A stretch of 30,109 nucleotides of DNA, taken from IMG/VR virus record IMGVR_UViG_3300044981_000197, positions 1 through 30,109 of that record; one strand, written 5' to 3'. A program made the translations under genes and the position numbers. Numbering within the stretch: position 1 is the first letter of the stretch; the number at the start of each line of letters is the position of its first letter. Source of the stretch: a virus. This document shows, one piece after another, positions 1,841-29,825 of the stretch. A model generated the notes under the pieces. The model made no database searches. It was not told where the DNA came from and was given only the letters and a program-made list of their open reading frames with translations.

Positions 1841-2485
1841 TTAAACGGCAATCCGGCTGGCCCGTGAACGAACGCCCACAAAGCCGAGCAGACCAAAGCC
1901 TAGCAGCATCAGCGCCCAGGTCGAGGGCTCGGGCACGCCGGTGGTCAGTTGGATCGAGCCGCCGAACGACTGCCGCGGCGCGGTGAAATCGATCGCGAAC
2001 TGCGTTTCGTCCGAGGTGAACGGCCCAGTCGCCGCCGAGAATGGACCCGCGGAACCGTCGAGCAGCGCCACCGGGAAGGTGTGCGAAGCGAGCAACCCGC
2101 CATCGGCGAAGGTCGACTCGGTGGTCGGGCCCGGGTCGTTGGTGAGCCCGTTGACCGTAAACGTGCTGAGCGTGTTCCCGCGCCCGCTGATATCGCTTTG
2201 CAGGATATCGACCGTCAGCGTGTGCGAGCCGGTGAAGCCGGCCGCGGCGCTGGCGTCGAGGGTGACGCTGGAAAGGTCGGCGTTGGGCAGGATCGGGCTC
2301 CCCTGCGCGGCGATGGTGATGTTGGCGAAGTTGGCGTCGTTGGCGGTGAGGCTGGCCGCGCCGGTGGTGATCCCGGTGACGTTGTCGATCAGCGCGCCGT
2401 TATCGAACACCTCGATTTGCAGCGTCGCCCGCGCCGGACTCGCGATCGCAGCGAGCAGCGCCGCTGACAGAAGAAGCTTATTCAT
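1841..2485 (-). CDS. PEP-CTERM (PEPxxWA-type) sorting-signal protein
   Basis: 214 aa. Residues 1-20 are a signal peptide (MNKLLLSAALLAAIASPARA, cleavage after ARA). The middle is a Thr/Ala/Gly/Asn-rich beta-type extracellular region. The C-terminus is a textbook exosortase signal: VPEPSTWALMLLG, a hydrophobic helix, then a basic tail (RSRASR). In bacteria such proteins are exported, recognised by exosortase (EpsH family) and tied to exopolysaccharide or the outer surface. An excellent Shine-Dalgarno (TAGGAGG) lies 5 nt before ATG 2485. The gene stands alone between two hairpins and opposes the upstream virion gene. It is not a normal phage family and looks like a host-derived moron; alternatively it could mark a piece of host chromosome. 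The sorting signal is clear; the biological role in the phage is unknown. Confidence 0.85.
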   Translation of the reverse strand: MNKLLLSAALLAAIASPARATLQIEVFDNGALIDNVTGITTGAASLTANDANFANITIAAQGSPILPNADLSSVTLDASAAAGFTGSHTLTVDILQSDISGRGNTLSTFTVNGLTNDPGPTTESTFADGGLLASHTFPVALLDGSAGPFSAATGPFTSDETQFAIDFTAPRQSFGGSIQLTTGVPEPSTWALMLLGFGLLGFVGVRSRASRIAV

Positions 2486-2506
2486 GCGTCCCTCCTAAAG
2501 GGAAAC

Positions 2507-2570: not shown

Positions 2571-3254
2571 CTACTTCGGCTGCGGGCGCTGGGGCGCGCC
2601 GGGTCGGGTCGGCAATTGTCCAGCGGTTGGCGGTCGTTGGCCCGGCCGCTGCCCAGGCAGACCCTGGCCGGGTTGAGCTGGCGGACGCTGGCCGGGTAGA
2701 CCCTGACCCGGCTGCGGAGGACGTTGACCCGGTCGCGGCGGCTGGGGGCTGGGCAGCTCCTGATCGGGGCCTTCCTCGCCCTCGCCCGGCAGTCCCTGAT
2801 CGGGCTGTCCGCCCTCGGGAATGTCGACGACGAAATAGTGCATCTTCTTGTGGCCAGTCGAGCTGACCACCGCAGCTAGAACCAAAGCCTTGCCCTCGGG
2901 AACGCCGGGGAGGTCGAGCGGCGGCCAGACGGTGCCCGGGGGCGGGTCGACCGGCGGCAACGGCTGGCCGGCGACCGGCGGCAGGCCGACGTCGGGATGC
3001 TCGGGATCGAGCGGCCACACTGGCAGCTGGCCGGCGTCCTCGCCGCCGCCCTCGCCCTCGTCGACGCCCCAATCGGGATCCACGGGCCGGCCAGGACGAC
3101 CGGGGCGGGATGGCAAATGACCGGGATGCCCAGGGGCGCCAGGGAAGCCAGGGAGCTGACCAGGGCGTCCAGGGCGCCCAGGAAGCTCATGGTCGGGGTG
3201 CCCGCCGCCCGGTTGGTCGAAAAACTGAATGTACGCCCACGAACCTTGTGCCAT
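2571..3254 (-). CDS. Collagen-like Pro/Gly-rich protein
   Basis: 227 aa starting MAQGSWAYIQFFDQPGGG. The N-terminal third has irregular Gly-Pro triplets such as GRPGRPGQLPGFPGAPG. A more ordinary segment lies near residues 125-155 (GKALVLAAVVSS and HYFVVDIPEGG), and the C-terminal third repeats LPGQRP and PGQGLPGQ units. The first half resembles collagen-like repeats seen in phage fibres and surface proteins; the second is a Pro/Gln-rich spacer. The ATG overlaps the TAA of the gene upstream (TAATG), and the gene ends the long leftward operon just before a hairpin. The repeats are visible; a structural or adhesive role is inference, and a disordered linker protein is the alternative. Confidence 0.7.
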   Translation of the reverse strand: MAQGSWAYIQFFDQPGGGHPDHELPGRPGRPGQLPGFPGAPGHPGHLPSRPGRPGRPVDPDWGVDEGEGGGEDAGQLPVWPLDPEHPDVGLPPVAGQPLPPVDPPPGTVWPPLDLPGVPEGKALVLAAVVSSTGHKKMHYFVVDIPEGGQPDQGLPGEGEEGPDQELPSPQPPRPGQRPPQPGQGLPGQRPPAQPGQGLPGQRPGQRPPTAGQLPTRPGAPQRPQPK

Positions 3255-14067: not shown

Positions 14068-14379
14068 TCAGCGACCTTCCTTCAAATCCCGCAAAAGCGC
14101 AATCCCGCGCATCCGCTCATCCCCCGGCGGGCAATCGATCCAGTCGAGCGCGGGCAATGGGATGTCGATCCGTTCCGGCGGCAAAGCTGACAGATGCTGG
14201 TGTAAAGCTGACACATGCGGCGCGAGCGCAGTGAAGCACCGTTGCGGTTTGGGATAGTGCCAGACACGATAGCAATGGGCGTCGACTGGCGTCGCAAGGA
14301 AGATTAGTCCGACATGCCAATGTCGTCGGGGTCGTAACGCTTGCCATGCGCTTGTTGACCTTGCTTGTTCCCGCGCCAT
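14068..14379 (-). CDS. Hypothetical protein overlapping the primase/helicase end
   Basis: Up to 103 aa if it starts at ATG 14379, which overlaps the 3' end of the primase/helicase gene by 76 nt in another frame. The part beyond that overlap looks like real protein (VDAHCYRVWHYPKPQRCFTA, SALPPERIDIPLPALDWIDC, PPGDERMRGIALLRDLKEG). No ATG lies close to the helicase stop. A GTG near 14217 would give about 50 aa. A frameshift-made extension of the helicase is another option. Start uncertain. Confidence 0.5.
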   Translation of the reverse strand: MAREQARSTSAWQALRPRRHWHVGLIFLATPVDAHCYRVWHYPKPQRCFTALAPHVSALHQHLSALPPERIDIPLPALDWIDCPPGDERMRGIALLRDLKEGR

Positions 14380-16775
14380 GGCTCGCCCCCACTAGGTGAA
14401 ACGACATCGTTGTCGGCGAAATCATCGGGTCGAAAGTTCCAGTTCGGCGCAATCTCCAGATTGTGCGCTTCGCCCATCTTCTGCAGCAGCTTGCCATATT
14501 TGAACTTGAACTTGCGCAGGTCGCCGCGCGCCATCTCGATCACCCCCGCGCGCTCGAATTCGAGCAGCACCGCAGACGCCTCGACCTTGGTGCGCGAACC
14601 ATCGACCCGCTTGATCGCATCTCGCAATTGAACCGGACTGAACCATGCCGAAATATCCATCCCCTGGATCACTCGCGCATCGGCGACGATCGCTCGCGCC
14701 ACTTCGCGTGATTTCGACATCGTGGCCCGCACCACATTTTCGTCATCGCGCGACGACAGGCTGAGATCCTCCAACTCAGCCCGCTCGACGGCAATATCCA
14801 TGAAATAGCGCATGAGGTGTTGTTTAAATGGGACGCTTTGGAGGTTCGCTAGGACTGTATCGTAAAATGGTTTGAGCGTGCCTGTCCAGGCCAAAAATTC
14901 GTTGTCGGTCTTATGCATGTTCTGAGGGGTGTGGGACATGATGAAAAAGAAAGCCCGGTCCGCGGCGTCTTCTGGCGTTAGGCCAATGTCTGGCGAGTTG
15001 GTCGCCAAGATCAGCCGACTGGGAATGTAGTAGTCGCGCTGGTGCCCGAACTTGATCTGACCTGAGATCTTATCTTCGCGGACCAAGTTCTTGATGATGT
15101 TGATCGCGCCGACGCTCTCCATGCGCACTTCATCGACGAAGGTGATCAGCTTGCCGCGAAAGGGCGTAACCAAGAACTTGTCGTCGTCGAGCGACCCGGC
15201 CTTGGCTTGCCCGGCCATCTCTTGAAACAGCGCGCTCATAAAACTGATGCCAAACCGGCTCTTGCCGATCCCCTGGCCGCCGACCAAGATCGGGCAGACC
15301 TGCTGCTTGATCTCTGGATGCTGGATGATCCAGGCGATGAATTTCTTCAACCACATCATCTGGGCGTCGTTGTCTCGGGTTAAGAGCCCAAACATGCGGT
15401 CAACCATGCTGATCGCGGCGACCATGATTTGTGGGTCGATGACGCCCACCGGCTTGACGGCGAACCCGGGGAAGGTGTTGAGGATCCGATATTCGTCGGC
15501 GTAGCGATCGTCGCTGGTCACCAGCCCATGGGCGCGCGAATAGCGCAGGTAGGCTCCAGGCTCTTGGCCGGGATAGAACTCATGCAGCTCGACGTCGGTG
15601 CGGAGCTTCGATTGCGCATAAATCTGAAATGGATTGTATGACTTCTGACCAAAGAAAATCTGATCATCTTTGCCGTGACGAGCAAATAACGCCTTGTAGG
15701 TGAATTCGAACGGAAGGCCCTTAACCAGAGCATCGCGATCGACATACACATCGCCCGAGACATCATAGGTGTAGCGCTCGCTCATCACCTCGATCGCTTC
15801 GACGTCGCCGCCAGCGCGAAAGGCGCGCCGGACTCCGATCTTGGCCGCAACCCCGAGCGTCCGCTCCATCGCCGGCCAGCCCGAGATCGGCGCTTGGCGA
15901 TTGCGCTCAAGCTCTTGCTCGGCCCGGTGAAAGAAACCCTCCAGCGCCTTGGGCGCGCCCAGGCCGCCCAAGAACCGGATCAGCTCAGCCGCGCTGGCCC
16001 CGCCGTCGACCGGCGCCCAGCACAGGCCTTCGAGGCTCTTGCCCTTGGCGTTGACCGCCGGGCCGTCAATGAACGCCTCGCGCGCAATCCAGCCGCCGAG
16101 CGTGCGCAACAGGCTCTCGTCCCAAGGTCCATGGTCGAGATAGACATTGACCCAATAGCCGAGGGTGGCGAAAGCGATCGCCCGACAAAGGGTTTCCATA
16201 TTGGTCGCCGGCACGGGCCTGGCTTCGAGATCCTCGGCTCCCAGCTCCATATCGTCGGCTGCGGGCTTGCCCATCGGCCGCCAGACCATGGTCGTCCCGG
16301 CGAAGCGCGACCCCGGCAAAGGCGCGCTGTAATGGATGACCGGCTTGGCGCGCTTGGTCGGCGCCGGGGTGTAGGCGAGCTTGGTTTCGACCCAGGCGTT
16401 GGCGTTGTCGCGCGAACCGCGGGGCCAACGATCGATCCAGGCGTCCACGGAGTCGGGGTCGGCGATCTTGAAGAGAACGGAGCTGACCGGCTTAAGATGG
16501 CCGCCCCAGGCCGCCCGCGCGTCGACCTGAGAGGCGAAAAGCTTGAACCAGACGTCGTCGGGGGCCTTGATCTGCAGCTCGACGAAGCCATCGCGTAATT
16601 CAGCCCCGAGATTGCGCTCCTCGCCTTCGACTAGCCAGTCCTGGGTAATGGTTTGCTCGGGCCCCTCGACCGGGACCGCGCTTTCTTTCTTGAACCAGAC
16701 GGCCGAAACATTGAGGCGGCGTTGAGCAATGAAATTGACGGTTAAATTTCGCTGGATCGTGGTTAATTGTGGCAT
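14304..16775 (-). CDS. Primase/helicase with SF3-type (DUF5906-like) ATPase
   Basis: 823 aa from ATG 16775; an in-frame TTG at 16826 would add 17 residues and lies in a possible promoter. The SF3 ATPase is in the second half: Walker A GGQGIGKS (about residue 497), Walker B LITFVDEV (about 543), and motif C RLILATNSPD (about 587), followed by the Arg-containing segment DAADRAFFFIMS. This is the layout of phage D5/DUF5906-type helicases that open the origin and are usually fused to a primase. The N-terminal 400 residues probably hold the primase-like or adaptor part, but I cannot point to catalytic Asp residues. No DNA polymerase is present in the window. Confidence 0.85.
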   Translation of the reverse strand: MPQLTTIQRNLTVNFIAQRRLNVSAVWFKKESAVPVEGPEQTITQDWLVEGEERNLGAELRDGFVELQIKAPDDVWFKLFASQVDARAAWGGHLKPVSSVLFKIADPDSVDAWIDRWPRGSRDNANAWVETKLAYTPAPTKRAKPVIHYSAPLPGSRFAGTTMVWRPMGKPAADDMELGAEDLEARPVPATNMETLCRAIAFATLGYWVNVYLDHGPWDESLLRTLGGWIAREAFIDGPAVNAKGKSLEGLCWAPVDGGASAAELIRFLGGLGAPKALEGFFHRAEQELERNRQAPISGWPAMERTLGVAAKIGVRRAFRAGGDVEAIEVMSERYTYDVSGDVYVDRDALVKGLPFEFTYKALFARHGKDDQIFFGQKSYNPFQIYAQSKLRTDVELHEFYPGQEPGAYLRYSRAHGLVTSDDRYADEYRILNTFPGFAVKPVGVIDPQIMVAAISMVDRMFGLLTRDNDAQMMWLKKFIAWIIQHPEIKQQVCPILVGGQGIGKSRFGISFMSALFQEMAGQAKAGSLDDDKFLVTPFRGKLITFVDEVRMESVGAINIIKNLVREDKISGQIKFGHQRDYYIPSRLILATNSPDIGLTPEDAADRAFFFIMSHTPQNMHKTDNEFLAWTGTLKPFYDTVLANLQSVPFKQHLMRYFMDIAVERAELEDLSLSSRDDENVVRATMSKSREVARAIVADARVIQGMDISAWFSPVQLRDAIKRVDGSRTKVEASAVLLEFERAGVIEMARGDLRKFKFKYGKLLQKMGEAHNLEIAPNWNFRPDDFADNDVVSPSGGEPWRGNKQGQQAHGKRYDPDDIGMSD

Positions 16776-27020: not shown

Positions 27021-29825
27021 ATGGAACGTCTATTCTATCACTTTAAGGACCAGACTGCGCCTGGAACAAGCGCGTACGACCCGCAAGATCCTGATAGTTA
27101 TGATCAATACATCCGCGCGATGATGGCGGACGCAAAGGATTACGAGAACTCCTTCCTCTGCATCGATCGCCAGAACGCCCAGCTCTACTATTACGGCTAC
27201 GAGCCCTGGATCGGCCCTTACAACCCCGGCCAGCCCTATATCGGCGAAGACCCCAACGCCACGCTGGGCGAAATCCTCAACAAGGATAACACCAACTCCC
27301 CCAACCGCTCGACCTACGTCTCCACCGACGTGCGCGATGCGGTGATGATGATGATCCCCTCTCTCATCAGGCTGTTCGGAGCCTCGGAGAGCCCGGTCTT
27401 CTTGGTGCCGCGCAATCAAGACGAAGTCGATATTGCCGAGCAGGGCACTGATTATGTGAATTATACGTTTTGGAATGATAATCCAGGTTTTCTCATTCTT
27501 TATGGCGCGTTTAAAGATGCTTTAACCGTAAAAACTGGTTTTGTTAAATGGTGGACTGACGACCACAAAGAGATTAAACGCAAGACTTTTCTTAACGTTA
27601 CTGCAGAACAACTGCAGATGATCTTGTCGGAGGATCCGAGCGCCAAACTGATCGACGTCGGCAAGCCCGTCAAGACGCCCCCGCCGCAGATCCCGACTGC
27701 TCCCCCGCCGGGGGCAGCTCCTCCGGCGCCGCCCTCGCCTCCCACGGGTCCGGCGCCGGGGGCGATGCAGACGCAAAATCCTCCCGGCCCCAGCGGGCCA
27801 GCCCCGCCGATGGGGCCGTCCGGGCCGCCGCCGGGCGCGCCGACTCCTGGTCCCTCGCCCGCTCCTCCCGGGGCGGCGGGGAACGCGAGTGGACCACCCC
27901 CTGGCCCGATGGCGGGCGCGCCGCCGCCGCCATTGCCGCAATCGCTCACCATGCCGCCGCCGCCGGTGTTCGATCACGCCACGATCGAGTTCGAAGTCTC
28001 GAAGCCGATCATCAAGGTCGCCGGGGTGCCGCCGGAAGAGATGCGATTGGATCGCTACGCCAGAACCTTCCGCGACAGCCGGATCGTCGGCCACGAACGC
28101 ATCGTCCCGGTCGATCAGCTGATTGCGATGGGTTACGACCGCGACCTTTGCCTGGAGCACATCCAGACCTCGGAGAGCGCCTTCACCGTCGAGCCGCAGC
28201 TGCGCAACGCCGCCCGCTTCATGGGCACCCGCATCGGCGATGGGGTCAAATATGGGGAATGGTATGTTCGCGTCGACAAGGATGGCGATGGCGTTCCGGA
28301 GCTGCGCTACATTTGCACCATGGGCGAGGATCAGCAGGTCGTCGCCGATGAGGAGGCGAACCGGATCAAGTTCGCGCTGTTTTCGTGTGATCCGGTCAGC
28401 CACACGATTGTTGGCGACTCTTTGGCGGACTACACGGAAGACATCCAGAGAATAAAAACCAATATGACCCGCGCCATCCTCGACAGCGCGGCGGAAAGCA
28501 TCAATCCCAAAACCGTCATCAACGAACTCACCGTCACCGTCGACGACGCGCTCAACGACGATCTCGGCGCGGTGATCAGAAGCCGCGGCGATCCGCGCGA
28601 CAGCGTGCTGTTCACCAACACCCCCTTCCTTGGCCAGCAAGCCCTGCCGGTGTTGGAGATGTTGAACGCTCAATTGCAGCGCCGAACGGGTCTTAGCGAC
28701 GCCGCCAAAGGCCTCGATCCCAAAGCGTTGCAATCCTCGACCATGCTGGGGGTCGAGGCGGTGATCAACGGCGCCCAGGAGCGTATCGAGCTGGTCGCTA
28801 GGGTCTTGTGTGAGACTGGGTTCAAAGATCTGTTTTCCGGTCTGTTCAACGAGATCACCGAGAACCCGAACCAAGAGCGGACGTTGCAGATCCGCGGCAA
28901 GTGGACGCCCTACAACACCTCGACCTTCGATGCGACGATGTCGGTCGAGGTCAACGCCAATCTTGGCAAGGGCTCCGACCTCACCCGTATGCTGGCGCTC
29001 AATCAGATCAAGCAAGACCAACAATTGATCGTGACCACCTACGGGCTCAACAATCCGGTGTGCGGGATCCCGGAACTCATCAACACCATCACCGATATAC
29101 TGGCCCTGGCCAATGTGAAAAATGTCGGGCGGTACTTCAAGACCCCGACGCCGCAACAGATGCAGCAGATCCTCAACGCGCCCAAGCCGCCCGATCCCAA
29201 TCTGGTCGCCGCGCAGGCGCAGATGGAGAAGGTTCGCTCCGACACCGCCAAGGCGGTCGCCGAGCAGAACCTCAAGACCAAGCAGCTGCAGTCGGACAAT
29301 GTGTTCAAGCATCTGACCCTGCAGGCCAAGACCGAATATGAGTTCAACAAGCTCGCGGTCGACGCTCAGAAGGCCGGGGTCGAGGGCGCGCACAAGCTCG
29401 GCCAGCTCGGCGCGACGTTGATGAAGAGCCAGTCCGACTCGGATCAGGCCGACAGCCAGAACCAGCTCGACATGGCCCAGCAGCAGCAGGCCTCCGACGA
29501 TAGCGCCCGGCAGCATCAGCAGGCGATGACCCAGGCCCAGCTCAAGGCCGCTCAGCTCGCCAGTCAACACATGCAGAAGATGGCCCAAATCCATTCCGGC
29601 CACGTCCAGCAAATGACCGGGATGGCGGCCAACCATCACGCAGCGATGACTGGCCATGGGGTGCAGCAGATCAAGACCGTCGCGGGCGCGCTCGCTGGCG
29701 ACGCCGATCGCGAGCACGAAGCGCATGAGAACGAGCTTGATCGCGGCCATGACGCGCTCAAGACCGCAGCCACTCTGACCAACCAGAAAGATTTGGCCAG
29801 GATGAAGCCGAGGCCTGCGCCGTGA
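27021..29825 (+). CDS. Portal protein (P22-type) with Pro-rich insert
   Basis: 934 aa from ATG 27021. The N-terminal part (residues 1-210) has the portal look (STDVRDAVMMMIPSLIRLFG, DYVNYTFWNDNPGFLILYGA, KDALTVKTGFVKWW). Residues about 214-316 are an inserted stretch of mostly Pro, Gly and Ala. The fold resumes with FDHATIEFEVSKP, then EDIQRIKTNMTRAILDSAAE, RTGLSDAAKGLDPKALQSST and VEAVINGAQERIELVARVLC, strongly portal-like stem and wing segments. Residues about 710-934 are a long Gln/His/Ala-rich coiled coil (QQQQASDDSARQHQQAMTQA), as in the long barrel of P22-type portals. Twelve copies would form the DNA gateway at one capsid vertex. Confidence 0.88.
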   Translation: MERLFYHFKDQTAPGTSAYDPQDPDSYDQYIRAMMADAKDYENSFLCIDRQNAQLYYYGYEPWIGPYNPGQPYIGEDPNATLGEILNKDNTNSPNRSTYVSTDVRDAVMMMIPSLIRLFGASESPVFLVPRNQDEVDIAEQGTDYVNYTFWNDNPGFLILYGAFKDALTVKTGFVKWWTDDHKEIKRKTFLNVTAEQLQMILSEDPSAKLIDVGKPVKTPPPQIPTAPPPGAAPPAPPSPPTGPAPGAMQTQNPPGPSGPAPPMGPSGPPPGAPTPGPSPAPPGAAGNASGPPPGPMAGAPPPPLPQSLTMPPPPVFDHATIEFEVSKPIIKVAGVPPEEMRLDRYARTFRDSRIVGHERIVPVDQLIAMGYDRDLCLEHIQTSESAFTVEPQLRNAARFMGTRIGDGVKYGEWYVRVDKDGDGVPELRYICTMGEDQQVVADEEANRIKFALFSCDPVSHTIVGDSLADYTEDIQRIKTNMTRAILDSAAESINPKTVINELTVTVDDALNDDLGAVIRSRGDPRDSVLFTNTPFLGQQALPVLEMLNAQLQRRTGLSDAAKGLDPKALQSSTMLGVEAVINGAQERIELVARVLCETGFKDLFSGLFNEITENPNQERTLQIRGKWTPYNTSTFDATMSVEVNANLGKGSDLTRMLALNQIKQDQQLIVTTYGLNNPVCGIPELINTITDILALANVKNVGRYFKTPTPQQMQQILNAPKPPDPNLVAAQAQMEKVRSDTAKAVAEQNLKTKQLQSDNVFKHLTLQAKTEYEFNKLAVDAQKAGVEGAHKLGQLGATLMKSQSDSDQADSQNQLDMAQQQQASDDSARQHQQAMTQAQLKAAQLASQHMQKMAQIHSGHVQQMTGMAANHHAAMTGHGVQQIKTVAGALAGDADREHEAHENELDRGHDALKTAATLTNQKDLARMKPRPAP

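Follow-up and report, generated by a model that had tools for sequence, protein, structure and literature searches.

A conserved PEP-CTERM protein gene of unrelated phages, probably exchanged among them and a candidate user of the host exosortase

In bacteria of soil and sediment, the exosortase pathway makes proteins of the surface and the matrix; roles are known for few of its substrates. On the phage side, Llp of phage T5 is a lipoprotein that serves superinfection exclusion. The bacterial PEP-CTERM/exosortase substrates are described by a model in which the protein is exported, anchored by its tail, and recognized by exosortase (Haft 2006, PMC1569441), and later genetic work indicates that PEP-CTERM proteins help to bind exopolysaccharide to the cell (PMC9850573, PMC12188702). 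A tested example of such binding is PepA (PMC9850573). Neither phage-borne PEP-CTERM proteins nor phage use of exosortase was found in the literature searched, most subscription journals lying outside it.

We analyzed a 30,109-base virus record of IMG/VR (the whole stretch is called the window below), which carries a gene for a protein of this kind. Like the bacterial substrates, the protein combines a signal peptide, a unique ectodomain, and a PEP motif followed by a hydrophobic helix and a basic end, and it is encoded by a stand-alone gene. Unlike them, it is phage-borne, with a single ectodomain conserved and apparently exchanged across unrelated phages; its gene lacks a sigma-54 site, usually occurs once per genome rather than many times, and has no exosortase in the same phage genome. 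The FxDxF (NF038126) and PepA (NF033554) families are PEP-CTERM proteins of similar size, but the window protein stays below the cut-off of the former (38.7 of 50 bits, with no match for the ectodomain alone) and has no match to the latter (cut-off 80). Judged by the sequence features tested, the predicted product is a PEP-CTERM protein, and by these cut-offs it lies outside both families. As for lipoproteins of the T5 Llp type, we propose an analogy, in that both would be small exported proteins of virulent phages that alter the surface of the infected cell; however, the window protein contains no cysteine and therefore no lipobox, bears a PEP-CTERM tail instead of a lipid, and is common to unrelated phages. 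The nearest cultured phages, Ochrobactrum phage vB_OspP_OH and Sinorhizobium phage phiM5, have no homologue of it.

The gene, its product, and the surrounding signals

The features of the locus are as follows.

1841–2485, minus strand: PEP-CTERM protein gene, 214 amino acids (open reading frame; three profile cut-offs exceeded; homologues on viral contigs; low dN/dS)
2426–2485, minus strand: signal peptide, residues 1–20, ending in A-R-A (sequence inspection, conservation in homologues)
1937–2425, minus strand: ectodomain, residues 21–183 (conserved across phage groups; no database match)
1844–1936, minus strand: PEPxxWA-CTERM sorting tail, with VPEPSTWA, hydrophobic helix, and basic end (NF035944, PF07589, PExxTW conservation)
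2491–2496, minus strand: ribosome-binding site AGGAGG, spacer of 5 nt to the ATG
1781–1809, no strand assigned: 11-bp perfect hairpin downstream, between two convergent genes (stem and folding scores)
2506–2524, no strand assigned: 7-bp hairpin immediately upstream of the ribosome site (stem and folding scores)
2539–2565, no strand assigned: palindromic hairpin, perfect over 13 bp, whose plus strand shows a T run (terminator pattern, stem, folding scores)
2571–3254, minus strand: Pro/Gly-rich (collagen-like) protein gene, the recurrent upstream neighbour (24 clustered loci, of which 22 share its strand relative to the PEP-CTERM gene)

The signal peptide reads MNKLLLSAALLAAIASPARA, with the AxA site preceding T21 by inspection, and the C-terminus of the protein is VPEPSTWALMLLGFGLLGFVGVRSRASRIAV. 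This tail scores 38.7 bits against NF035944 PEPxxWA-CTERM (cut-off 35), 21.6 bits against TIGR02595 (cut-off 16), and 32.2 bits against PF07589 (cut-off 20.7), the last cut-off being exceeded in 42 of the 46 records. The preliminary description had claimed an exosortase-type substrate with a full PEPxxWA signal and basic tail, and both the AxA-bearing signal peptide and the passing of all three NCBIfam/Pfam cut-offs bear this out. Between the two signals lies an ectodomain of 163 residues, which, like the whole protein, is free of cysteine, contains no transmembrane stretch by inspection, and found no match by sequence searches in Pfam, PHROGs, NCBIfam, or the PDB.

Among 49 distinct homologues, all have a basic n-region and a hydrophobic stretch at the N-terminus, 48 keep the AxA site, and 48 keep the PExxTW motif, which occurs in the variants PEPSTWA, PESSTWV, PEASTWV, PETSTWV, PELSTWA, and PETKTWA. 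The ectodomain is the most constrained part of the protein (median dN/dS 0.115 over 1,225 pairs) and the sorting tail is the more variable part in sequence. The open reading frame at 1841–2485 is thus real, and its sorting signals are more than a chance resemblance. One homologue, in G043 (L058 1339–1998), retains the same ectodomain but has lost the PEP motif and carries the tail VPGPVVGAGLPG in its place, which we take to be reminiscent of Rhizobiales tails; across 398 genomes, it gave just weak matches. The replacement tail (VPGPVVGAGLPGVIVGCGFLVLLAMTRRKA) is possibly another sorting signal.

The gene has, as first described, its own strong ribosome site, AGGAGG placed 5 nt before the ATG. 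It had also been described as insulated by hairpins on both sides. Strong hairpins do lie on both sides (folding z-scores of −3.7 and −6.2 for the minus-strand transcript), but the insulation is only partly shown, because the terminator pattern is matched solely by the hairpin at 2539–2565, and there on the plus strand. No promoter was found for the gene in the window, and the strict sigma-54 motif, which is common in chromosomal PEP-CTERM genes of Proteobacteria without defining them, occurred in none of the 63 upstream regions. In groups A, A2, A3, and B of the phages defined below, the Pro/Gly-rich gene lies 55–204 bp upstream on the same strand; its product has the conserved core GTxWPPL...GKALVL... 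and may, to judge from this arrangement, be a partner of the PEP-CTERM protein.

Carrier phages and the movement of the gene

The window encodes an SU10-type portal, a terminase, an SNF2-type helicase, a DUF5906 primase-helicase, and a Gp88-like protein, which mark it as a tailed phage. Its portal is nearest, among cultured phages, to those of Ochrobactrum phage vB_OspP_OH (MT028492; 39%) and Sinorhizobium phage phiM5 (37%), and its helicase to that of the former (43%). Scanning IMG/VR with the protein revealed 65 loci with the ectodomain; they lie on 64 contigs, whose names point to 31 metagenomes, and are 75–99% identical over full-length matches; a second scan with other conserved stretches returned the identical set and no more distant members. 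Four other contigs place the gene, as the window does, between a helicase gene and a tail-region gene, and the gene lies inside two contigs with exact terminal repeats (G007, 104 nt; G030, 127 nt). Apparent terminal repeats in G006, G010, and G017 proved inexact when checked and were left out of this count.

Outside these viral contigs, the ectodomain was not found among the GenBank phages searched, among plasmids, in 84,980 bacterial and archaeal species (one genome each, scanned with two short patterns that a distant homologue would escape), or in 398 Pseudomonadota genomes, a search of limited sensitivity that matched PEP-CTERM tails only. The preliminary description had suggested looking for PEP-CTERM signals in phage databases and for the same locus in host genomes: the former search yielded the 64 contigs together with the non-homologous PEP-CTERM proteins treated below, and the latter, within the sensitivity just given, no bacterial homologue of the ectodomain. 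It had also named, as the alternative to a phage gene, a misassembly that fuses host chromosome to the phage. In favour of such an artefact, or of host contamination, PEP-CTERM genes are frequent on the chromosomes of some bacteria; against it stand the number and independence of the contigs, the shared flanks, the contigs with terminal repeats, and the lack of a bacterial homologue in the searches above, which together exclude it for practical purposes, and we regard it as extremely improbable.

No exosortase gene was present in any of the 46 phage records checked, so that a phage-encoded exosortase was rejected and the protein would depend on the host for its processing, in line with the original proposal. 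Tyrosine integrase was likewise absent from 33 records, many of them fragments (all control genomes were positive; the scan covered integrases of the tyrosine type), which suggests that the carrier phages are virulent. On the same result, and within the same scope, lysogenic conversion was rejected.

When 33 contigs, including the window, were separated by their shared genes, a rough grouping, the gene was seen in at least six groups of phages, both podovirus-like and myovirus-like, that have few other genes in common. Group A, with its subgroups A2 and A3, has SU10-type portals; group B measures 71–78 kb and group C up to 66 kb; group D with D2, which share many genes, reaches 80 kb at a G+C content of 0.39–0.48, and one member of D is myovirus-like by its tail sheath and baseplate genes; group E has portal and major capsid families of its own; and group F is a further carrier group. 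Pairs from different groups mostly share a handful of genes at most, at about 45% identity, whereas their ectodomains are 80–97% identical. Within groups, the ectodomain is among the most conserved genes in the majority of diverged pairs. Its synonymous divergence in such pairs usually falls short of the median for the other genes they share, which points to exchange beyond constraint alone. The PEP-CTERM gene has a G+C content of 0.55–0.57 in phages of 0.39–0.42. Its tree shows B, D, and F as single clades (with moderate support for B and D), but not A, C, or E.

The position of the gene also depends on the group. It follows the helicase in group A, lies with the Pro/Gly-rich gene between terminase and portal in A2, stands between portal/scaffold-like and capsid genes in group E, adjoins an endolysin gene in group B, has an endolysin gene near in groups C and D, and is found among non-structural genes in group F; no endolysin is close to it in groups A, E, and F. 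Because positions differ and the gene tree departs from phage kinship, horizontal exchange is indicated, and on these sequence comparisons its most likely history is one of several transfers between groups, followed by inheritance within them. That this exchanged phage gene encodes an exosortase substrate is, in our estimate, very probable. In Ochrobactrum phage OH, a cultured relative, the terminase gene directly adjoins the portal gene; this empty junction, the stand-alone gene with its own ribosome site and hairpins, and the group-dependent positions agree with the moron first proposed.

Other genes recur in these phages as well. Two endolysins (an M15 peptidase and a GH19-like enzyme) are 70–85% identical across otherwise unrelated phage groups, for example at L131 8806–9255, L134 11393–11860, and L140 12733–13434 and their homologues, as if drawn from an exchanged pool of host-specific lysis genes. 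A small exported protein with the motif C-x3-W-x-[YF]P-x-x-Q-[RK]C occurs in phages of groups A, C, and E (window 14071–14391, minus strand; G018 27206–27562; G007 21222–21581; G033 31112–31417).

A second type of ectodomain, joined to the same type of signal peptide and tail, is encoded by five further open reading frames.

L069 5341–6108: type-2 PEP-CTERM protein
L218 3980–4693: type-2 PEP-CTERM protein
L219 3971–4696: type-2 PEP-CTERM protein
L220 3950–4678: type-2 PEP-CTERM protein
L226 3962–4675: type-2 PEP-CTERM protein

L069 has the gene in the place that type 1 takes in A2, between terminase and portal; in L218 it lies one gene past a group A helicase; and in L219 it occupies, in reversed orientation, the group C locus by the endolysin and Pro/Gly-rich genes. 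Common ancestry of the two ectodomain types is unsupported (profile probability 0.3%, both profiles being shallow). The presence of non-homologous PEP-CTERM proteins in the same neighbourhoods suggests that selection at these loci is for an exosortase-sorted product, the ectodomain being exchangeable. The conservation over at least six groups, the probable exchange, and the non-homologous stand-ins go beyond what could be seen in the preliminary description of one sequence.

PEP-CTERM proteins with unrelated ectodomains were also observed in the viral contigs L067 (5401–6108, which exceeds the cut-off for choice-of-anchor E, NF033208, too), L068 (5509–6102), and L071 (5578–6186). In G037:C1 (about 47540–48300) and in G036, a second PEP-CTERM open reading frame of about 250 amino acids, rich in cysteine and glycine, lies about 2 kb from the first.

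Possible function and host

Following the PEP-CTERM/exosortase model, the protein would be exported during infection and cut at the AxA site, its tail would hold it in the inner membrane, the exosortase of whichever host is infected would recognize PExxWA, and the product would be delivered beyond the outer membrane, among the exopolysaccharide. Going further, the ectodomain might bind a conserved component of the surface or the polysaccharide and so re-coat the infected cell, to which, or to whose debris, further phages and the phage's own progeny would adsorb less. The interpretation as a phage moron using the host exosortase is well supported by the sequence comparisons, and display outside the cell by this route is, by analogy with the bacterial substrates, probable. 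As to the benefit, shielding of the surface or exclusion of superinfecting phages is a tentative proposal. Taken as a whole, from moron to re-coated cell and reduced adsorption, the explanation seems to us moderately likely.

Several observations count against this explanation: the G043 protein has no PEP motif, the upstream regions have no sigma-54 site, and the position of the gene gives no single time of expression. In addition, superinfection-exclusion proteins tend to be specific for one receptor, and an ectodomain as nearly constant as this one is unusual among them. This constancy appears to argue for a common host target, and thus against a receptor-specific blocker. It also argues against a simple decoy, in which the tail would occupy the host exosortase, leave host PEP-CTERM proteins unsorted, and so weaken the host surface. 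The decoy would fit a sorting tail that is always retained in some form and ectodomains that are exchangeable, but the tail alone would suffice for it, and it is the ectodomain that is most constrained and the tail that varies more; we therefore consider it very unlikely.

With the same export route, the benefit could instead lie in the matrix: exopolysaccharide would be tied to the cell, infected cells would aggregate, or the matrix would be loosened, so that progeny reach new hosts or escape. Overexpression of PepA in Aquincola lowers soluble and raises bound polymers (PMC9850573), and polysaccharide adhesion in Nostoc needs exosortase (PMC12188702). A type-2 ectodomain (L069) shows weak likeness to the floc protein PepA, NF033554 (29.7 bits, cut-off 80), and the endolysin genes near the locus in groups B, C, and D would suit this reading too. 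However, the window ectodomain itself does not match PepA, and it is not clear what a virulent phage would gain from more bound polysaccharide. We find a matrix benefit rather doubtful.

The tail might also be a plain membrane anchor, unsorted by exosortase; the ectodomain would then act at the inner membrane or in the periplasm, with lysis as one possible role. In favour of this, the G043 protein has a hydrophobic, basic tail that does without PEP, and the conserved endolysins of groups B, C, and D lie close by; but the retention of PExxTW in all but one of the distinct homologues exceeds the needs of an anchor, and groups A, E, and F have no endolysin at hand. This alternative is unlikely.

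As to the host, the closest cultured relatives of group A are phages of Ochrobactrum and Sinorhizobium, while phages of Pelagibacter and Caulobacter are among those closest to group B; this gives a lead, and only a lead, to an alphaproteobacterial host. A genome scan with the M15 endolysin returned one distant match, in a betaproteobacterium.

The carrier phages are known only from metagenomes. A virus gene under strong selection across unrelated phages would point to a surface target that is both common and useful, and the phage PEP-CTERM gene offers a compact means of approaching the roles of exosortase substrates. It would also be a further way for virulent phages to alter the surface of the infected cell. 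We lean slightly toward the view that among virulent phages there is a pool of surface proteins, exchangeable and sorted by exosortase, with one dominant ectodomain conserved across unrelated phages and non-homologous alternatives in the same neighbourhoods, all delivered by the exosortase of the host. If this is true, the pool would represent a general phage strategy, in which a protein-display pathway of the host is taken over to re-coat the infected cell.
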